From: Corynebacterium jeikeium
Lineage (GTDB): Bacteria; Actinomycetota; Actinomycetes; Mycobacteriales; Mycobacteriaceae
Direction: 5' to 3'
Assembly (NCBI GenBank): GCA_003955985.1
Contig: CP033784.1
Coordinates: 1,488,001 to 1,552,000, forward strand
Length of the DNA stretch: 64,000 nt
Shown here: positions 12,619 through 44,500 of the stretch, piece after piece
Layout of the letters: every line of letters starts with the position of its first letter
Position numbering within the stretch: position 1 is the stretch's first letter
The notes under the pieces: generated by a model
Seen by the model: only the letters and a program-made list of their open reading frames with translations
The model's database searches: none
Told to the model about the DNA's origin: nothing
Made by a program: the position numbers and the translations under genes

Positions 12619-12643
12619 GCAACCCCGCCGCCTTCCACGAGAT

Positions 12644-13540
12644 ATGATGCGCAAGTCCGACTCTTCCCTGTTGTGCGGCACCTGGGTGGACCGCATGTGG
12701 GGCACGAAGGTCAAGGACAAGCGCAAGGCAGCCAAGCAGGATGCCACCGACGGCAAGCCGTCGATTAACCCGCCATGGAGCGCAGCTCGCGTCTCCCGCG
12801 TGCTGACCACCATCGCACTCGTGGTCATCACCATCGCCGCATTTGCCGAGACAGAAATCTCCGCCTCGAACTTCTTCACCGGCCTGGCCAACCTGCCAGA
12901 GACCATGGCTTTGTTCCTGCCGCCGTCCTCCGGTGGTATTGCCGGCGAGATCTTCAAGCTGCTTCTCGATACCCTGCAGATCGCCTTCGCCGCCACCTTC
13001 CTCGGCGCCATCCTCGCCATCCCGATTGGCATCATGGCCGCCTCCAACGTGGTTGCCAACAAGTGGGTACACGGCTTCTTCCGCGTGCTCATCGTGATCA
13101 TCCGCGGCATCCCGGAACTGATTTTGGCCATCATCTTCGTGGTCATCTCGGGTCTGGGACCGGTCGCCGGTACGCTCGCGCTGGCTCTCGGTGCTGTTGG
13201 TCTGCTATCCAAGCTGATCGCCGACTCGCTGGAAGAAACCGACACTGACGTGCAGGAAGCCCTGCGCACTACTGGTGCAACCGAGTCGCAGATCTTCTTC
13301 GCCGCCACCGTTCGCCAGGCAATCCCGTCTTTCATTGCCCACTGCCTCTACCTGCTGGACACCAACATCCGCTCGGCCACGCTGCTCGGTGTCGTCGGCG
13401 CAGGCGGCATTGGCTTCCAGCTGCTCAATGCCTCTCGAGTCAACCAGTTCGACGTCGTGACCTACATCCTCATCCTCATGGTCGCTGTCGTCCTCGTCGT
13501 CGAGGCGCTGTCCATGCGGCTGCGTGCCGCCGTCCGCTAG
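12644..13540 (+). CDS. phnE: Phosphonate-type ABC transporter permease
   Basis: An integral membrane permease of the PhnE family. A transmembrane helix near residue 55 precedes the binding-protein-dependent transport domain, with the EAA-loop region EALRTTGATESQIFFAATVRQ and the typical end RSATLLGVVGAGGIGFQL. About 45 polar residues precede the first helix, more than usual. The ATG at 12695 (MWGTKV) is an alternative start. PhnE normally works with a PhnC ATPase and a PhnD binding protein; neither is in the window, although a phosphonate hydrolase and dehydrogenase follow directly. The transporter is therefore incomplete here. Confidence 0.85.
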   Translation: MMRKSDSSLLCGTWVDRMWGTKVKDKRKAAKQDATDGKPSINPPWSAARVSRVLTTIALVVITIAAFAETEISASNFFTGLANLPETMALFLPPSSGGIAGEIFKLLLDTLQIAFAATFLGAILAIPIGIMAASNVVANKWVHGFFRVLIVIIRGIPELILAIIFVVISGLGPVAGTLALALGAVGLLSKLIADSLEETDTDVQEALRTTGATESQIFFAATVRQAIPSFIAHCLYLLDTNIRSATLLGVVGAGGIGFQLLNASRVNQFDVVTYILILMVAVVLVVEALSMRLRAAVR

Positions 13541-13588
13541 TCCCCTCCACCCCAGTCCCCGTCCCCTTCTACCGAAAAGGAAAACTCC

Positions 13589-14257
13589 ATAACTTACCAG
13601 CTCGCTATCTTCGACATGGCTGGCACCACCATCGACGACCGTGACGAGGTCTACCGCGTCCTCCGCGAAGCCACCGAACGCGAAGGTGCCCGCTACTCCG
13701 ATGAGACTTTCCAGCACTACATGGGTACCGAGAAGTTCTGGGCGATTGGCAATCTGCTCCGTGAAGGTGGAATCGAGCCGACGCCAGAGGTCCATAATCA
13801 CGCCTGGGAGTTCTTCCGCGCCGAGCTTGTTCGCACGTACAAGGAAAACCCGCCGACCCCGCTGCCAGGCGTCGAAGACATGCTGAAGGCGCTGCACGAT
13901 AAGGACATCAAAGTCGGCTTGACGACGGGCTTTGCGCGCGAAATCGTCGATATCATTGTCTCCTCTATGGGGTGGGACAACGGGATTATCGACACCGTTG
14001 TCGCCGGTGACGAAGTCGAGCACGGCCGCCCCGAGCCCGACCTGATTCTGGCTGTTATGGAGAAGCTCGGTGTGACCGACAAGGCAGCTGTCATTAGCTC
14101 CGGGGACACCGAGGCTGATGTCCGTTCCGCCCAGGCCGCTGGCGTCACCAGCATGGGTGTGCTCACCGGCCACTTGACTCGCGAACAGTTCGAGTCCCTC
14201 GGTGCCGACTACGTCCTGGATTCGTCCGCGAACCTGCTGGACATTGTTGAAAAGTAG
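13589..14257 (+). CDS. Phosphonatase-like HAD hydrolase (PhnX-like), apparent ATA start
   Basis: A HAD-superfamily protein of the phosphonatase-like group. Motif I is DMAGTT, preceded by QLAIF; motif III and IV regions are KVGLTTGFAREI and VAGDEVEHGRPEPD, then SSGDTEADVRSAQAAGV. The first ATG of the frame (13616) lies directly after the codon of the nucleophile Asp, so starting there would destroy the active site. The frame is open back to the phnE stop, but between 13541 and 13615 there is no ATG, GTG, TTG or CTG. The best start is the ATA at 13589, giving (M)TYQLAIFDMAGTT, with AGGA about eight bases before it. This is either a rare non-canonical start or a mutated ATG. Confidence 0.8.
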   Translation: MTYQLAIFDMAGTTIDDRDEVYRVLREATEREGARYSDETFQHYMGTEKFWAIGNLLREGGIEPTPEVHNHAWEFFRAELVRTYKENPPTPLPGVEDMLKALHDKDIKVGLTTGFAREIVDIIVSSMGWDNGIIDTVVAGDEVEHGRPEPDLILAVMEKLGVTDKAAVISSGDTEADVRSAQAAGVTSMGVLTGHLTREQFESLGADYVLDSSANLLDIVEK

Positions 14258-14298
14258 AATCTGCCCTGTAGACCTAACCTGGTAAGTACACAACGCTG

Positions 14299-15369
14299 AT
14301 GACGACTCCGACTCCCCCAACCACCGCCCCTTCAACTGCGCCGACGGAAAAGGCCCAGGCGCTTGTCTGGCACGGCGGTAGCGACTTTCGCATGCAGGAG
14401 GTTCCTATCCCTGCTTTGCACGAAGGCGAAACCTTAGTGGAAATCACCACCGCCACCATCTGCGGCTCCGACCGTCACACCGCTCTCGGTCGTCGCAGTG
14501 CGCCCTGCCCCAGCGTCCTCGGCCACGAGGGAGTCGGAGTCGTCCGCGCTACCCGCAACCCAGATTTGCAGGTTGGCCAGCGCGTTGTGTTCTCTGTCAC
14601 CGCGCCATGCATGGAGTGCGACCGCTGTGAACGCGGCATGACCGCCAAGTGCCGGATTTTGAAAAAGACTGGTCACGAGGCCTTCGATAGCGACTGGCCT
14701 CTTTCAGGGACCTATGCTTCCCATATTGTGCTGCGCAACCATCAGCCAGTGGTAGTAGTCCCCGACTCGCTTCCCGATGTCGCTGCCTCCATCGCGACCT
14801 GCGCCGGCGCCACAGTGATCGCTTGTATGGAACAGGCTGGACCCCTTGCAGGTAAACGAGTCCTGGTTATGGGCATCGGCATGCTCGGCCTCATCGCTGT
14901 TGAGGCAGCTGTTTGTGGTGGCGCCGCTGAGGTTGTGGCCATGGACCGTAACCAGACTCGGCTTGAATGGGCACGACAGTTGGGTGCGGTTGTGCCCGAC
15001 CCGTCGGCTGCTGGTGCCGATTCCGAACCAGAGCCTTTCGATATCACCCTCGAGTTCTCCGGTAGCGAATTCGGAGTCACTACCTGCATCGGCAGCCTCG
15101 ACATAGGTGGTCGAGCGGTGCTGGCCGGAAGTGTTGCCACGTCACCGGCTTATGCCCTCGATCCGGAGTGGCTCGTCCGTGGCTGGCGCACCATCACCGG
15201 TGTCCATAACTACGAGCCACGGCATCTTGCGCAGGCAGTAGAGTTCCTTGCTGACTCCCAGATTGATTGGGACACGGCTGTGTCGGCACCAATTGCGCTA
15301 GAGGATGTGCCTGCGGAGGTGGAGGCGGTGCAGGATATGTATTTGAGAGCGACTGTGACGTTTTCCTAG
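14299..15369 (+). CDS. Zinc-dependent alcohol dehydrogenase, phosphonate-associated type
   Basis: Medium-chain dehydrogenase of 356 residues. Catalytic zinc ligands are in TICGSDRHT and GHEGVG. The structural zinc site C-x2-C-x2-C-x7-C is in APCMECDRCERGMTAKC. The Rossmann motif appears as VLVMGIGMLGL. The sequence fits the family proposed to act in phosphonate catabolism (often written HpnZ-like), and its place directly behind phnE and the PhnX-like hydrolase agrees. The substrate, possibly a phosphonate-derived alcohol or aldehyde, is inferred. Confidence 0.83.
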   Translation: MTTPTPPTTAPSTAPTEKAQALVWHGGSDFRMQEVPIPALHEGETLVEITTATICGSDRHTALGRRSAPCPSVLGHEGVGVVRATRNPDLQVGQRVVFSVTAPCMECDRCERGMTAKCRILKKTGHEAFDSDWPLSGTYASHIVLRNHQPVVVVPDSLPDVAASIATCAGATVIACMEQAGPLAGKRVLVMGIGMLGLIAVEAAVCGGAAEVVAMDRNQTRLEWARQLGAVVPDPSAAGADSEPEPFDITLEFSGSEFGVTTCIGSLDIGGRAVLAGSVATSPAYALDPEWLVRGWRTITGVHNYEPRHLAQAVEFLADSQIDWDTAVSAPIALEDVPAEVEAVQDMYLRATVTFS

Positions 15370-15697
15370 CAACCGCTGGAAAGAAAAGGTACGCAACAGA
15401 AAGAATTTCAACCAAGGCTGTTACCTATCTCAGAGGAGAACTGCGAAAAACCTTTTCTAGGGCATTGAAATGAAAGACTTCATTGGATAAGAGATTATAG
15501 GTGGTCAATAAATATTCTCGAAAACCAACATCCAAAACGAATCACAGCTTCTAATAGCAATTCAACAGCGGGTTATAATCCCAGTTTCAATTCCCTATTC
15601 AATAGCCCTGGAAGTCCATCCTTCGAAACAATTGAGAACATGAAACAGCGAAACGCTGCATTTTTTGGAAAATTAAATATACTGAAACTAAACCCGG
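15370..15697. other. AT-rich spacer, no gene seen
   Basis: About 330 bp between two converging genes. Base composition shifts to AT-rich here and stays so to about 17820, marking the left edge of the likely transferred segment. I see no open frame, tRNA or clear terminator. Confidence 0.5.
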
Positions 15698-17491
15698 TTA
15701 ATCATCCGCTATTCCAGATGCGGCAGCAACCAACGCTTCACGAAGCTCGCGATCCACAGCATAGATATGTAGCCCGTGTACCCCTCGAGTAAGTAAGACA
15801 TTAAGCTGATTCTTCAACAGTTCTTCAGCGAAGGACTGTTTCGACCCGTCTTTCAACGTTCGTTTATTCTTCACATTTGGGTTCCACGACTCAGATGGGT
15901 CAAAGATAATCTTTCCATCACGATATTTGACAGAGGGGCCAATAATGACACCAGCATAGTTCAGGTCAAAACCCTGGATAGTAAAAATAGAACCAATTTC
16001 ATCAATAGTTTGTGGGCGCTCTGCCCAGCTCAGCTGTAGACCTGCAGTCTTCTTCTCAGTACTCTTCTTTTGATTGTTCCATGGCATTGAAAAATCACCG
16101 ACTCGAACCCGCCAGAGTTCATTCTCCGCAGGTGGCCGAGCACTCGAAAACTGCCAATCATACGTGGCTATTAACCTAGATAATCCTTCCTCTACATTCG
16201 ACGCTTTGTCCTTAATTGACTCGTAAAGCTGGTTAGGATCATCGAAAATCTTAATACTATATTTATTATCCTCCGGAATTTTATGGATAATACCGTCATC
16301 GACAAAAGAGCGTACCCACTGAATGGTATCCTCCGAGGCAAGCATCCTCATCTGAAGCTTTAAATCAATACTTTTATCGACTCGTTGCTCCATCCATTCC
16401 AAATCCGCCGGCTCCCACACCTGATTTGCGGCAAGAATCTGGTCAGGATCAAATACTGCTACCACTACATGTGCACGTTCGAGAATATCTTTGAGGTGAT
16501 TTTTACCCCTGTACGACTGTTTTCCTTGCGTCCATAGCAAATGAGCTTCGTCGATTAGAACGACATCTACCTTTTCCCCAGGATTCCGATGATTGATAAA
16601 GGATGTCGGCTTCATGACTTTAAGATTCTTGGTACTCGAAATACCGAGTTTTTCAGCAACCTGCTGATAAACAGTAACCTGCTCATCGTGGTTGACTAGC
16701 ATATACGCGTCAAGGGTCGATTTCCCAAGATGTTCTTCGATAGCTGGGAGTTTTTGATTCAAGTCATAAAAAACGCTGCTAAGCAATACTGTTTTGCCGG
16801 TTCCAGCAGCGCCTGAGACCATAATCAGCCTAGAGTCGCCGATTGATTGCATTTGATCTACAACTGCATTAATTATCTCAAACTTTGCATCAGACTGCTC
16901 TGTAGTTAGCTCATGGAAAGGTGATGCTTTAAAAAGTGCAGATTCGCGGATAATACGTTCAGCTGGAAATAGCTGTTGATCCAGCGCATGTAGTTTAGAC
17001 CAAATCTGGGTGAAAGATTTGTCTAAATGCTCTTTGGTGAAGTAATCACCTTGCGCATTTGTTCGCGCATTCTCAGTAGCAACACTGGTCTCACTGGCAG
17101 ACTTCACCGATTCGTTGCTAGGCAAGTACTGCATAAGTCGATTCTCAATATCCAGAGTCAACGACTTATTAAATAGAGAGTGCCCAATCACGTACATCTG
17201 GGTCCCAGCGCCATCACGTAAATCAATCCAGAGATTTCGCTTGGAGTTAGATGCCTTTGTATCCCCCTCGAGATGTTGGGTCGTTCGCTGGACAATCGAG
17301 TTCGTTTCCCCCACATAGACTCGATAGGATCCCTTGTTGTCCCGCAATGAAATGATGTAGACCGTAGGGTAGTCAATAATAAAACGGCGGTAAGGAATGT
17401 CTTTGCCTTTTAGCTCGTCGATGCCACTACTTGCGTAGTCGACTCGCTCAACAAATGCCCTTGGGGCTGGAAGCAGTTTTCTCTTGCTCAC
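15698..17491 (-). CDS. GIY-YIG nuclease fused to DUF2075 superfamily 1 helicase
   Basis: A protein of about 597 residues if it starts at the GTG at 17491, one base after the MazG-like stop codon. Residues 40-125 form a GIY-YIG nuclease domain: VYII at 44-47, VYVG at 58-61, and a conserved acidic residue at E116. Residues 190-597 are a DUF2075/superfamily 1 NTPase: Walker A GAAGTGKT at 227-234, Walker B VVLIDEAHLL near 310, the sensor-like VVAVFDPDQIL, and a motif VI-type LNVLLTRGVHGLHIY near the end. The domain set (nuclease plus helicase) resembles restriction or antiphage effectors. The gene is clearly richer in A+T than its flanks, so it was probably acquired. A defence role is inference from architecture, partner and composition. 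Confidence 0.85.
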   Translation of the reverse strand: MSKRKLLPAPRAFVERVDYASSGIDELKGKDIPYRRFIIDYPTVYIISLRDNKGSYRVYVGETNSIVQRTTQHLEGDTKASNSKRNLWIDLRDGAGTQMYVIGHSLFNKSLTLDIENRLMQYLPSNESVKSASETSVATENARTNAQGDYFTKEHLDKSFTQIWSKLHALDQQLFPAERIIRESALFKASPFHELTTEQSDAKFEIINAVVDQMQSIGDSRLIMVSGAAGTGKTVLLSSVFYDLNQKLPAIEEHLGKSTLDAYMLVNHDEQVTVYQQVAEKLGISSTKNLKVMKPTSFINHRNPGEKVDVVLIDEAHLLWTQGKQSYRGKNHLKDILERAHVVVAVFDPDQILAANQVWEPADLEWMEQRVDKSIDLKLQMRMLASEDTIQWVRSFVDDGIIHKIPEDNKYSIKIFDDPNQLYESIKDKASNVEEGLSRLIATYDWQFSSARPPAENELWRVRVGDFSMPWNNQKKSTEKKTAGLQLSWAERPQTIDEIGSIFTIQGFDLNYAGVIIGPSVKYRDGKIIFDPSESWNPNVKNKRTLKDGSKQSFAEELLKNQLNVLLTRGVHGLHIYAVDRELREALVAAASGIADD

Positions 17492-17492
17492 G

Positions 17493-17816
17493 TTACAACC
17501 TGTCGTGCTTAAGCGAACTTCCCGTGCTTTTACTACGCGGATAGCGCACTTCATTTAAGGCGATTTTCTTCGCAATCGCCTCATTAGGATCGATTTCAGC
17601 CCTACGAGCCAGTAAAAGGCAGTAGCTCAGCACATCTGCAAGCTCATCCTCGAGATCGGCTTTTTCGTATTTTGCGTCCCATTGAAAAAGTTCGAGCAAC
17701 TCAGCAGACTCAATTGAGATCGCTTTAGCAAGATTCTCAGGAGTATGAAAAACCTCCCACTTTCTGTCAGAAGAGAACTTGAAAAGCTGCTCTACTGTTT
17801 CCCGACTAACTTCCAT
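17493..17816 (-). CDS. MazG-like nucleotide pyrophosphohydrolase
   Basis: All-alpha NTP pyrophosphatase of 107 residues. It has the metal-binding acidic motif in ESAELLELFQW and the second motif DELADVLSYCLLLARR typical of MazG/dUTPase-like enzymes of the YpjD or RS21-C6 type. It begins six bases after the steB stop, and its ribosome site AAAAGG lies within the last codons of steB. It runs into the GIY-YIG/DUF2075 gene with a one-base gap. The pair is likely one translationally coupled unit. Its nucleotide substrate is unknown; hydrolysing modified or alarm nucleotides during infection is one possibility. Confidence 0.85.
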   Translation of the reverse strand: MEVSRETVEQLFKFSSDRKWEVFHTPENLAKAISIESAELLELFQWDAKYEKADLEDELADVLSYCLLLARRAEIDPNEAIAKKIALNEVRYPRSKSTGSSLKHDRL

Positions 17817-17822
17817 GTGTTT

Positions 17823-18731
17823 TTACCTTTTCAAGTCCCCAACAACCCCAACCTGCCCCGCAGCGTCAGACACCGCGTCCACACGCTTCACGGCAGGGTC
17901 GGCGCCCAAGCGCTCGTCAGGCAAGGCACCAACACCTTCACGGCCGAAGCTGTCAGTCCCCACCACAACGTGACCAGCTGCATCCTCACCAGCACCAAAG
18001 CCCTCAGCCAGCGCCACCGCCAGATCTGCAACCAGCCCAGCACCGAACTCCGGATCCTCGCCCTTGTCAATAGCAGCGCGCGACACAGTCCCGTGATTAC
18101 CAACAATCACAATGCCAGCAGCCGGGCGCAGAGTCCCCTCGTCGTACTCGACGAACCCGCCGCCCTTCAGAGCCTCCAGCAGCAGCTTTCGGTCAGCAGC
18201 GGTAGCCCGCTCTCCCCCATCCTTATCCAGCTCTAGCACTGGAGCCAGCGCCTGACCAGCCTGACGGCCCGGCTCACGACGCTCCGGATCCAGCTGCACA
18301 TCAGCCGGCAGCGACGTAGAAACCGTGTCCTTCAGCTCGTCCGCACCAGCGGAGGAGAGGAACTTATCGGTCAACTTCAACACGCCGGCATCCGGGGCAC
18401 CAGCAGCGCGCAAGGTCTCGGAAACCCCTGCAAGCTGCTCATCGGTGGCATCGGGAGTCACGATAACAAGGACAGGCACGTCCTTCAAAGAGTCCTTGAC
18501 GATCTCCCCGACGATGGGCTCGATGATGCGATTGGCTTCATCGGCACGCGCTTGCTGCGCATCGGCACGTGCGACAGCGGCATCGCGCTCAGAGGCGGCA
18601 CCGGTGCCGAAATCAATGCCAGCACCAGCGGGGTTCAGCACATAAGCACCCAGTGCAGCACCTGCCGCCACACCGAGGGCAGCACCTGTAACACCGGCTG
18701 TAAACTTCCCGCTCCTGCGCTTCTTCCCCAT
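17823..18731 (-). CDS. steB: SteB / MctB-family protein (copper-transporter family annotation)
   Basis: A protein of 302 residues with one N-terminal transmembrane segment (GVTGAALGVAAGAALGAYVL), a predicted coiled coil (residues 48-70, AVARADAQQARADEAN) and a large C-terminal domain outside the membrane. Homologues are listed either as MctB copper channel (mycobacteria) or as SteB, partner of SteA in septal cell-wall cleavage through the RipA hydrolase (C. glutamicum). The adjacent steA favours the SteB role. In related genomes I recall steB being followed directly by the Nudix/pyrG genes; here 9 kb of accessory genes intervene. Confidence 0.9.
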   Translation of the reverse strand: MGKKRRSGKFTAGVTGAALGVAAGAALGAYVLNPAGAGIDFGTGAASERDAAVARADAQQARADEANRIIEPIVGEIVKDSLKDVPVLVIVTPDATDEQLAGVSETLRAAGAPDAGVLKLTDKFLSSAGADELKDTVSTSLPADVQLDPERREPGRQAGQALAPVLELDKDGGERATAADRKLLLEALKGGGFVEYDEGTLRPAAGIVIVGNHGTVSRAAIDKGEDPEFGAGLVADLAVALAEGFGAGEDAAGHVVVGTDSFGREGVGALPDERLGADPAVKRVDAVSDAAGQVGVVGDLKR

Positions 18732-31752: not shown

Positions 31753-32009
31753 TTAATTAGCCCACAGCCGCTGCCATAGACCCAGGAACTAACCCCGCAT
31801 TCACCCGCCAATGACAGCCATAAAGGCAGTCAGTAACTCACATTGAGGTAAGCAGCGAAAGGTGCCAACCGGGCGATCCTCTAAGCGGACACGCCTGTGT
31901 CCATTAACCCGGACACCCTTTGCCCCCTTAAGCCTCAAGACACCGGTAAGCCCGCCTTCCGCTACCGAGCAGACCAACCCCTATTTAATCCCGTTTACTC
32001 GTGGGTAAC

Positions 32010-32065
32010 AAAAAGTGGGCCGCAGCACCCAACCCCACACAAGGGGCAAGGCAACAACGACCCAC
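32010..32065 (-). terminator. Terminator of the rRNA operon (likely)
   Basis: Downstream of 5S the minus strand can fold GTGGG with CCCAC around an inner CCCC/GGGG stem and continues with TTTTTG (A-run at 32010-32014 on the plus strand). Position directly behind the 5S gene supports a terminator. Confidence 0.55.
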
Positions 32066-32081
32066 ACAATAAACTTTTTAT

Positions 32082-32198
32082 GCCGGCGGCGACCTACTCT
32101 CCCACACCCTCCCGAGTGCAGTACCATCGGCGCTGGTGGACTTAGCTTCCGGGTTCGGAATGGGACCGGGCGTGACCCCACCGCTAACACCACCGACA
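32082..32198 (-). rRNA. rrf: 5S ribosomal RNA
   Basis: About 117 nt on the minus strand, with the conserved GGGGTCACGCCCGGTCCCAT and CATTCCGAACCCGGAAGCTAA elements and the end GAGAGTAGGTCGCCGCC. Ends are estimated from pairing of the terminal stem and can differ by a few bases. Confidence 0.95.
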
Positions 32199-32299
32199 AA
32201 AACCAGGCAACAACCCATCCCCACCACAACTTTGGGTGGGTGGTGTCATGCCAGACACTGAATAACGGACGCGAGCAAAAACCCTGTAATTCACACTTT

Positions 32300-37297
<4,998 letters not shown>

Positions 37298-37660
37298 AAA
37301 CCCTTCAAATCAGAAGAATCAAAAAAACAATGAAAGGCCCAAAAACCTGACAAAAACAGACAAACAACCACCACACACAAACAATGCATGCGGCCTGGCC
37401 GTTATCCAAAAATAAAACGTTCTCCCCTTCGAACCGACGAGGCCAAAAAAGAAGAGAACAACCATGATCTTTCCCACAAATGAAAAAACCACGCGAAAAG
37501 CACCCAAACAAAGGCGCCGCCACGCAATCCATCACCCGCAAGCACAAAAGGACCCAAAACAAACAAAGGCCCCCGGCACCCACCAGCAACACACACGCAA
37601 ACGACAACCAAACAAGCACTTTCCCAAAAAAGTATTAGTTAGTACATCGGCACACTATTG

Positions 37661-37672
37661 AGTTCTCACACA
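37661..37672 (-). promoter_or_regulatory. boxA-like site in the 16S leader
   Basis: The minus strand reads TGTGTGAGAACTCAATAG, the usual actinobacterial leader boxA. It lies about 365 bases before the mature 16S 5' end. The leader 37298-37736 holds no gene. Confidence 0.6.
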
Positions 37673-37736
37673 ACACACACCCACGAAGACAACCACCCCA
37701 AACCAGGGCAACCACCACGTGAGCAGCGAGAGAAAA

Positions 37737-37765
37737 CATTAACAAACAATTAACCAGAAAGTCAA
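37737..37765 (-). promoter_or_regulatory. Candidate rRNA operon promoter
   Basis: The minus strand has TTGACT (37760-37765) and TTAATG (37737-37742) separated by 17 bases, upstream of the boxA leader. The -10 is weak, and further promoters up to 37990 are possible. Confidence 0.4.
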
Positions 37766-37992
37766 ACCAACGACTCCCAGCGGCTAACCGCACGAAAACA
37801 TTTCCCCCACATCAGCCAACCAAACACATAAACTGCCTGGCCACGCTGACCTCCGAATACATTACACACACCCCACCCAAAGACACAAAACCCCAGGTCG
37901 ACAGACGTGAATCAACGTCCCATCTGTTCAAAAGAGTTGTTAACCAGAAGCTGCCAGTCCTCTCCTTTGATGAAACCCAAGAAGAGCTACAG

Positions 37993-38412
37993 CTACTGTC
38001 CACGAAGTCTTCGGTGATAATCCTCGAAGGCTTCTCTGGAAGAATGTATTCGCTCCTTTCGCTGACTGTCCGTGGTTTTCCTGACAATGACTTCACGGTC
38101 GTAAAAATTCCGCTGGAATTCATCCTCCAGTCCGACCATGTCGGAAAGGCCACCGATGAAGGCATCATATTCACGGATAACGATTTCATTTTGCCTATCT
38201 TCAACGGTGTAGAACACATTTGGGTTTTCAACCGTCAATCGGCCTGGCGTGCTCTGCGGGCTCACCCGCCGAGAAGCAACCTCACCCTGAAAATCGTGGG
38301 CTTGTTCGGAGCCCGTTTCTGACGCACGCTGAGACTTCTTCGAGAAACGCGCGATAATCCGACCCATCAACGAGCCTCCCCGTCCAGCACGGTTTTCATG
38401 TCTTGGACTCAT
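37993..38412 (-). CDS. Hypothetical protein, 139 residues
   Basis: A hydrophilic protein starting MSPRHENRAGRGGSLMGRII, rich in Arg, Glu and Asp, with no membrane segment. The ATG at 38412 has AAGGTGG six bases upstream. It lies between the rRNA promoter region and tyrS, and a large inverted repeat (38456-38526) lies in its leader. I recognise no family. The overlapping frame 37812-38231 is rejected because it has Ser/Trp-rich, non-protein-like composition. Confidence 0.65.
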   Translation of the reverse strand: MSPRHENRAGRGGSLMGRIIARFSKKSQRASETGSEQAHDFQGEVASRRVSPQSTPGRLTVENPNVFYTVEDRQNEIVIREYDAFIGGLSDMVGLEDEFQRNFYDREVIVRKTTDSQRKERIHSSREAFEDYHRRLRGQ

Positions 38413-38455
38413 CGCTACCACCTTTGCTTCGGCTTCTACGCTCCCTTTAAAACAA

Positions 38456-38526
38456 CTAAGGCTCCAAGCTGACCAGGAGCAGATGATTCTGAAATCATCG
38501 AACCCTTCGCCTGCCCGGAGCCTTAG
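38456..38526 (-). ncRNA. Structured inverted repeat between tyrS and the 139-aa gene
   Basis: Outer arms CTAAGGCTCC (38456-38465) and GGAGCCTTAG (38517-38526) pair perfectly over 10 bp. Inside them GATGATT-CTGA-AATCATC (38482-38499) forms a second perfect hairpin. On the minus strand the outer stem is followed by TTGTTTT. It could be the tyrS terminator, an attenuator, or a small structured RNA in the leader of the 139-aa gene. The ncRNA label is tentative. Confidence 0.45.
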
Positions 38527-43014: not shown

Positions 43015-44250
43015 TTACCCCTCTTCCGTTTCCGGCCTCGGCGGGCTCTGGTATCCACGGGAAACACCCTCAATAAGCTGCTCGAGGATGTCGAAACTCG
43101 GCGGATCAATGGAGTCCACAAAATCGGTGGAAACCTCCTGGCCCGTCTTCAACTGCGTCTGGAATTCCTCCATCGCCTCAGGCTGGCTGGAGCGGTAACC
43201 GTGCTTGGCCGCCAGCTTCTGAAGCTCAGGGTCTTCGGCGAGGAGCCGTGCGACCGCAGCTCCATTGTCGTTAAAGCCCAGCGCCACGTGAGTACTCAGA
43301 ATCGTCGGAGATGGATACGCCAGGCGCATTTCCGGCTTCAACCGGCTGTTCGGGGCGCTGTTCTCCCCCAGGAACTGCGACTCGTAGACCATCACCATTG
43401 GCTTTGAACCGACACCCTGCGAGAGGTAGTCCGAAAATGGCCCAGCTGATGAGGATTCCGTGTACCCCTGGCCGGTGAACAGCGGGGTGAGCTCTGGCAA
43501 GACCGCATTAACCTGCCCATTGTCGGACACAATCCGGCCTTCATTGGTAATCCAAGACATGAGCGACAAGTACATTGCGGCCGAGTTCGACGAACGAATG
43601 TCCGTCGTGGACATCTGCACCGTGCGCGGCGACGGATAATCGTTCTCCGCGAAGTCACGCCAGCGGACATTGTCGTGCTGCATCGTGGCCAGCGCTGCCA
43701 TATCTACCTGCCACGTAGTGCCCTGTTGGCGAGCAACATTTTCCCGCGCCAATGCCTGCAAGATGTTGTCGAAAGTAGCGATCGCCATCGGTGTGTAGAA
43801 GACGTCGTACCGCTCAGCGCCGCTCATTTTCTCGGCAATTTTCTCCGCTGCCGGTGCTGACGACGGAAACGCCAAGTCGAAGGAATCCAGATCCACATCC
43901 GTGGCCATCCGACGCGAACCCGCCGTCTTTACTTCCACCACATAGCCGTGAGAGGCAAGAGCTTTCTGGACCTCTTTGTCTTCGAAGAAGGGCTTTTTCT
44001 CAGAGCCAACAATCGCCTTGACGACGGTCTTTTCACCACCGAAGAAAACACGGTTTCCTCCGGAGCTGCCACCAGAAAAACCTGGAATACTACCGCCACG
44101 ACCGACATAGACTGCAACAGCCGCGATGACAATCAAAATGACTGCAAGAATTGCCCCCGGGCCCATGCACCCTTTCTTGCTACCACTCTGATTTTTATTT
44201 TTATCTCGTGAGCTGCGATTTCCACCGCTCGACCGCGTACTTTCCACCAT
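43015..44250 (-). CDS. Membrane-anchored solute-binding-like protein
   Basis: A protein of 411 residues with a cytoplasmic Arg/Ser/Lys-rich start (residues 1-30), one transmembrane helix (ILAVILIVIAAVAVYVG), a Gly/Ser linker, and a binding-protein-like extracellular domain (VKAIVGSEKKPFFEDKEVQ, FDLAFPSSAP, VMVYESQFLGEN). It is not a lipoprotein, in contrast to its downstream partner. It is first in the three-gene unit. Ligand unknown. Confidence 0.8.
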   Translation of the reverse strand: MVESTRSSGGNRSSRDKNKNQSGSKKGCMGPGAILAVILIVIAAVAVYVGRGGSIPGFSGGSSGGNRVFFGGEKTVVKAIVGSEKKPFFEDKEVQKALASHGYVVEVKTAGSRRMATDVDLDSFDLAFPSSAPAAEKIAEKMSGAERYDVFYTPMAIATFDNILQALARENVARQQGTTWQVDMAALATMQHDNVRWRDFAENDYPSPRTVQMSTTDIRSSNSAAMYLSLMSWITNEGRIVSDNGQVNAVLPELTPLFTGQGYTESSSAGPFSDYLSQGVGSKPMVMVYESQFLGENSAPNSRLKPEMRLAYPSPTILSTHVALGFNDNGAAVARLLAEDPELQKLAAKHGYRSSQPEAMEEFQTQLKTGQEVSTDFVDSIDPPSFDILEQLIEGVSRGYQSPPRPETEEG

Positions 44251-44351
44251 GAAATTATGGTAAGAGACCCGGACAAACCTGGCAACAGATATAGAAATAA
44301 TCAGTAATCTGCGTCACTTCAGGGGCACCCTGGCATTACTGGGTTACTGAC

Positions 44352-44433
44352 GGCGGCGGGTCGATCCGAGTTACTGACTACGTTTATGACTGGCGGCGGC
44401 GGGTCAATCCGAGTTACTGACTACGTTTATGAC
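44352..44433. repeat. Two tandem 39-43-bp units
   Basis: Units at 44352-44390 and 44395-44433 share GGCGGCGGGTC(G/A)ATCC followed by GAGTTACTGACTACG and TTTATGAC. The second unit merges into copy 2 of the hairpin repeat. Confidence 0.85.
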
Positions 44434-44500
44434 AAAAATGGCCTGAAAAATGGCCTGAAAGTGTCATAAACTTACACAGTTTCACATTTGCAGCCCGTAT
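44412..44500 (-). repeat. Dispersed hairpin repeat, copy 2
   Basis: On the minus strand it reads ATACGGGCTGCAAATGTGAA, then arm GTTTATGACA, a GGCCATTTTT-type centre present twice, arm TGTCATAAAC and the end AGTCAGTAACT. It matches 31664-31752 in order and spacing but is inverted in the chromosome. Confidence 0.8.

Follow-up and report, generated by a model that had tools for sequence, protein, structure and literature searches.

The window examined here, a stretch of 64,000 nucleotides from a Corynebacterium genome of 2.53 Mb, carries immediately behind the host gene steB a two-gene cassette that pairs a small MazG-like protein with a GIY-YIG nuclease-helicase (Table 1). We lean modestly towards the view that the two genes form a cassette that moves horizontally and acts against phages (or plasmids): the nuclease-helicase would attack invading DNA, and the MazG protein would act on dNTPs. 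We favour this reading because of the conserved catalytic residues of both proteins, the tight linkage of their genes, signs of mobility, defence genes beside plasmid-borne relatives and an alternative type of nuclease-like head on sister proteins.

On the minus strand the order is steB, the mazG-like gene and then the GTG-started nuclease-helicase gene. The host gene, which we take to be steB from the gene of that name in C. glutamicum, ends six bases before the mazG ATG, and the sequence AAAAGG is found 9 nt 5' of this ATG, within the final steB codons. This is the likely ribosome binding site that the preliminary description of this DNA had placed there. The same description had the two cassette genes a single base apart, and the coordinates agree: one base separates the mazG stop codon TAA from the helicase GTG at 17491. 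An alternative in-frame ATG at 17554 would lengthen the helicase to 618 aa and make it overlap mazG. Both cassette genes are intact and closely coupled.

Table 1. Features of the cassette and its surroundings (window coordinates; residues are those of the encoded protein)
Feature	Position	Strand	Description	Basis
mazG-like gene	17493..17816	-	107 aa; predicted all-alpha NTP pyrophosphohydrolase, DCTPP1/RS21-C6 type	PF12643
GIY-YIG + SLFN-g3 (former DUF2075) superfamily 1 helicase gene	15698..17491	-	597 aa from GTG	PF09848, PF01541
GIY-YIG nuclease domain	17117..17368	-	about residues 42-125	Pfam and alignment
SLFN-g3 helicase domain	15752..16831	-	residues 221-580	Pfam and alignment
Helicase motifs			Walker A 227-234, DEAH 314-317, TRG 568-570	
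AAAAGG, likely mazG ribosome binding site	17826..17831	-		inferred from sequence
Terminator-like hairpin	15645..15659	-	about 40 nt 3' of helicase stop	consensus match only
steB, host gene 5' of cassette, outside cassette	17823..18731	-		

The helicase belongs to the SLFN-g3 family: PF09848 matched it with an E value of 2.8e-91 (306.9 bits, cut-off 24) over profile positions 2-354, which is the whole domain, and the motor motifs are intact. The nuclease head was recognized by PF01541 (E 3.3e-5; 24.5 bits, cut-off 22.6), and the two tyrosines, the arginine and the catalytic glutamate of a GIY-YIG nuclease are all present. In an alignment of 42 GIY-YIG helicases, comprising those of Corynebacterium (the window's included, broken ones omitted) and three from Bacillota, Y59, E116, G227, G230, G232, K233, D314, E315, H317, T568 and R569 were invariant, Y45, G61, R69, A316 and G570 were kept in 41 and the Walker A threonine T234 in 39. 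The GIY-YIG head, Walker A, DEAH and TRG motifs named in the preliminary description are therefore upheld by Pfam matches and by conservation alike. A distant relative, L045, has no Pfam GIY-YIG match at an E value of 0.01, and its assignment rests on the alignment and on the PADLOC profile PDC-S14. An AlphaFold model of the helicase, built on six sequences, had a mean pLDDT of 67 and a pTM of 0.60. Among the solved structures closest to it in fold are DSH9, Upf1 and human SLFN11, and since the TM-scores are low (about 0.2-0.45), these matches support the SF1 class only. Sequence searches of the solved structures with the helicase gave P-loop matches only, NCBIfam profiles gave no match near any cut-off, PHROGs gave nothing beyond a pyrophosphatase match, and phage records yielded four matches of 25-27% identity.

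The partner protein was matched by PF12643 (MazG-like) with an E value of 7.7e-14. Its family profile in turn matched 4qgp and dCTP pyrophosphatase 1 (DCTPP1/RS21-C6), the latter at 6.1e-28 over nearly the entire profile. The window protein has the ExxE and ExxD metal-binding motifs, and the four residues concerned (E36, E39, E58 and D61) did not vary among the 25 aligned relatives, which came from bacteria and one archaeon and a few of which lack a neighbouring helicase (for example, L079 and L081). The invariant metal site suggests that the protein is probably an active enzyme, and it is predicted to hydrolyze dNTPs, probably dCTP-like ones. DCTPP1 is described as binding dCTP and modified dCTP derivatives with high affinity (PMC7162842, in the part available to us). 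The window protein differs from DCTPP1 in that it is small and bacterial and has its gene next to that of a nuclease-helicase.

Several observations suggest that the cassette is mobile. The preliminary description had called it AT-rich compared with both sides, and indeed the GC content of the two genes is 0.448 and 0.454, against 0.63 for steB and 0.61 for the gene at 14299-15369. Of all 1.86-kb stretches in the window, the one with the lowest GC begins at about 15401. Among 51 helicase genes compared with their flanks (L001, loci shorter than 12 kb and genes shorter than 1.3 kb were omitted), GC was lower in 48, the window's included, with a mean difference of -0.08, and the three that were not lower are extra members of tandem arrays. 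The cassette occupies different places in different Corynebacterium species, and three Bacillota helicases fall among the Corynebacterium ones in the tree (branch support 85, below the starred level). Helicase genes were also found only as pieces (L038, L042, L043, L044 and L074), as would be expected if the system is lost repeatedly.

Comparison with relatives also supports the earlier claim that the pair was inserted exactly behind steB. The window helicase is 98% identical to a C. vitaeruminis helicase, and in both genomes of the C. vitaeruminis group, the window's and G235 (L001), the pair lies behind steB. G090 is the closest sampled relative that lacks the pair (steA 80-87% identical, in two pieces), and its steB reads as two ORFs in different frames. 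Directly behind steB this genome has a 66-aa ORF, then HsdM and HsdS genes (L103, 4554-8705), so the same spot is used by another defence-type locus. In the six other relatives viewed, a XerD-like gene, identified by eye, lies within one to three genes after steB. We found no convincing flanking repeat around the cassette; only short, imperfect two-copy repeats were present, and a repeat-bounded island was rejected. Inspection by eye of the window ORFs between 11000 and 22000 revealed no integrase. Nearby, the window block at 12619-15160 holds, as read by eye, transporter permease, HAD-like and alcohol-dehydrogenase-like genes. In its place the sister genome L082 has other genes, including one for a TROVE/Ro60 protein, and it keeps a short remnant of the block, homologous to the block's dehydrogenase end.

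The preliminary description had proposed a search for homologous pairs, and such pairs occur far above chance. Of 242 Corynebacterium genomes, 46 have a helicase relative and 21 a MazG relative, the window genome included in both counts, and by coordinates MazG adjoins the helicase in 18 of the 21; the three unpaired genomes are G205 (MazG on another contig), G138 and G046. We rejected the status of core gene for either member on these counts. Sporadic occurrence together with the low GC described above is the reverse of the core-genome distribution and normal composition that the earlier description had held against a defence role. Both genes lie on the same strand in all 19 distinct two-gene loci (20 rows, one C. 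vitaeruminis genome being present twice), and the ORFs overlap or are at most 23 bp apart in 18 of them, the exception being L044, whose helicase gene is fragmented. Of 25 MazG-like genes (above the Pfam cut-off) in an even sample of 296 Actinomycetota genomes, 13 lay within 3 kb of a strong PF09848 helicase (more than 170 bits), against 0.04 expected, and chance adjacency was rejected on this basis. These 13 include the window genome, and the pair in G396 is on opposite strands. The strong helicases number at least 30, in 27 of the 296 genomes, a lower bound since at most six candidates per genome were scored. The remaining 12 MazG-like genes are not near a helicase, and eight of them are in genomes that lack a strong helicase. 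Linkage recurs across phyla, with both kinds of nuclease-like head and with both gene orders, the order being swapped in L003, L086 and L110 and also in G466, G451 and G308. Among viral MazG relatives (the best 80 of 96 loci, with flanks of up to 4 kb), 77 loci have no helicase and three do.

MazG is, however, an optional partner of the helicase: 28 of the 46 helicase-bearing Corynebacterium genomes have no MazG beside it, and the idea of a constant companion was dropped. Nine of these 28 genomes carry two helicases in tandem. The tandem SLFN-g3 loci (L035, L036, L037, L039, L040, L041, L051, L052, L077 and L004), none with an adjacent MazG, combine a GIY-YIG helicase with one whose head looks by eye like PD-(D/E)XK. 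These extra helicases, as well as those that accompany MazG in L085 and L088, have within their first 130 residues a conserved R-x-D ... E-L-K-Q-W pattern that we read by eye as a putative PD-(D/E)XK nuclease; this reading rests on 17 of 18 aligned rows, the remaining row (L078) being GIY-YIG. A Pfam scan of five of these helicases (L037, L004, L077, L085 and L088) detected no GIY-YIG domain. That two kinds of nuclease-like head are found on this motor suggests that cutting matters. On a helicase tree of 42 rows, made by a quick method and with L054 on a single very long branch, the MazG label changes nine times, at least six of these changes being forced by supported branches, and the tandem label changes three times. 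MazG and a second nuclease-helicase thus seem to be alternative ways of adding to a single core.

We also examined plasmid sequence around relatives of the helicase or of MazG. From 39 helicase and 26 MazG records (12 records hold both) we chose 15 neighbourhoods, of which one (L194) had no annotation; restriction-modification, CRISPR or CBASS-like genes were present in eight of the remaining 14. Type III-A CRISPR genes lie right behind the helicase in L195, type I restriction-modification genes are near the loci L086 and L088, a type IV enzyme is near L087, restriction-modification genes occur in L090, restriction genes in L196 and L197, and a CBASS-like set in L198. MazG adjoins the helicase in L086, L087 and L088 and lies about 6 kb from it in L090, whereas L195-L198 have the helicase and no annotated MazG, the helicase of L198 being a relative of only 25% identity. 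The other six annotated stretches (L083, L084, L085, L089, L192 and L193) have no clear defence gene. Stretches taken from the opposite side of six of the positive plasmids, which were thus preselected, contained a restriction, CRISPR or CBASS gene in none of six cases; one of them holds a Fic gene. MutT or similar genes occur near the L088 and L196 loci. In L087 (6674-12069) a (deoxy)nucleoside triphosphate pyrophosphohydrolase gene is followed by a gene for a PLD-helicase-DUF3427 enzyme (PADLOC mREase_IV, 1.6e-262), and these adjoin MazG and a GIY-YIG helicase, giving two pairs of nucleotide enzyme and nuclease-helicase in a row. This layout suggests that pairing a nucleotide enzyme with a nuclease-helicase is a common theme and, more boldly, that modified bases are targeted. 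On an IMG/VR prophage-like contig (L110, 4986-7735), helicase and MazG are found between endolysin and integrase genes, followed by a Doc-like gene. The Corynebacterium flanks, by contrast, are mostly ordinary genes, as judged by eye from selected ORFs of 21 loci with seven proteins checked against Pfam; the exceptions are a PADLOC PDC-S06 match near the lone helicase of L064 and HipA in L056.

In the favoured reading, the cassette, placed behind a host gene, would probably be transcribed by read-through from steB. The core would be the nuclease-helicase, whose SF1 motor would load on invading or replicating DNA and whose GIY-YIG head would cut the DNA on which it had loaded. The MazG partner would hydrolyze dNTPs and so lower or clean the pool during the attack on foreign DNA. 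The preliminary description had seen in the pair a common logic of antiphage systems, and this claim stands in part. Co-occurrence, the sporadic distribution, the plasmid neighbourhoods and the prophage-like cargo agree with it, whereas the lack of a MazG beside the helicase in most helicase-bearing Corynebacterium genomes and the mostly ordinary Corynebacterium flanks do not.

Those flanks would suit a mobile module for DNA repair or stress, in which the helicase-nuclease processed repair intermediates and MazG served in house-cleaning. GIY-YIG nucleases and SF1 helicases are known in repair, and enzymes of the DCTPP1 type clean nucleotide pools; RecD-like models overlap the window helicase as well, if weakly (8.8e-4 and 0.0034). 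However, a repair function sits poorly with genes that are sporadic and sometimes broken, that occur on a prophage-like contig and on plasmids, there with defence genes in eight of 14 neighbourhoods, and that use more than one nuclease-like head, and we regard it as rather unlikely. Co-inheritance, with MazG merely travelling with the helicase and having no joint function, would accommodate the repeated gain and loss of MazG on the tree and the many Actinomycetota MazG-like genes situated away from any helicase. Against it stands the linkage in different phyla, in both orders, with both heads and with overlapping or abutting ORFs, and it is the explanation to which we give the least credence.

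A further alternative, which we think unlikely, is a type IV-like restriction system with self-protection, in which DNA containing modified cytosine (or another odd base) is attacked and MazG removes modified dCTPs. It would make sense of the profile match to DCTPP1 and the reported affinity of that enzyme for modified dCTP derivatives (PMC7162842, as far as that source was available), of the neighbouring pyrophosphohydrolase and mREase_IV genes in L087 and of the MutT-like genes near two other loci. Against it, many helicases have no adjacent MazG, although one may be encoded elsewhere, and a Pfam scan of the window proteins detected no modification-reading domain. An extension of this idea, still more speculative and in our judgement improbable, is that these are modular defence cassettes in which a pyrophosphohydrolase is wired to a nuclease-helicase, so that altered-base DNA would be destroyed and altered dCTPs kept out of host DNA. 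If so, self and non-self would be told apart via the nucleotide pool, not by a methyltransferase, and the nuclease heads would be interchangeable, whether GIY-YIG or PD-(D/E)XK.

The anti-phage reading can be set beside several known systems. PF09848 has been counted among abortive infection (Abi) protein families (PMC10121019), and the window helicase is a clear member of this Pfam family; the part of that paper available to us names the Pfam domain alone and mentions neither a GIY-YIG head nor a MazG partner. The PADLOC candidate profile PDC-S41 matched relatives with the PD-(D/E)XK-like head (L085 at 2.2e-19, its N-terminal part included, and L120 at 1.2e-20), and its C-terminal part matched the GIY-YIG relatives L045 (5.3e-8) and L110 (2.9e-8). 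However, it gave no match to the window protein, whose head is GIY-YIG, at E values up to 1. PDC-S14, another PADLOC candidate with a profile of about 300 aa, matched the GIY-YIG N-terminus of the same two relatives (9.5e-10 for L045 and 3.1e-9 for L110) and the window protein weakly (7.8e-5). The PADLOC models Nhi (5e-13) and AbiO (1e-10) matched the helicase motor, within residues 216-451 of the 618-aa ORF and with nothing in the nuclease head. Only profile positions 183-374 of 470 and 179-369 of 468, respectively, were covered (about 41% of each), and membership in either was rejected. Human SLFN11 (7zel) was the fifth fold match of the helicase model, at a TM-score of 0.22-0.29, but scanning the window helicase with Pfam gave no match to a Schlafen core domain.

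DefensePredictor lists MazG as a predicted, unvalidated defence domain (PMC13092281, in the portion available), and the available parts of a BREX paper (PMC12839542) and a HEPN paper (PMC3710099) discuss Schlafen domains, with MazG not found in them. We found no name for the pair of MazG and nuclease-helicase in the open-licence PubMed Central literature, where DUF2075, PF09848 or COG3410 appears in few papers, for helicases carried by 27 of the 296 Actinomycetota genomes. A joint role in defence, if true, would tie nucleotide-pool enzymes to DNA-cutting defence, and the pair offers a compact construct for testing MazG as a defence domain.

Finally, two features elsewhere in the window deserve mention. 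The region from about 32000 to 38500 lacks ORFs of at least 280 aa, shows a strong negative GC skew, lies just beside a tyrosyl-tRNA-synthetase-like gene and is probably an rRNA operon. At 44346-44460, just upstream of the ORF at 43015-44250, a 43-bp unit occurs twice in tandem (95% match) and is followed by a 12-bp repeat.
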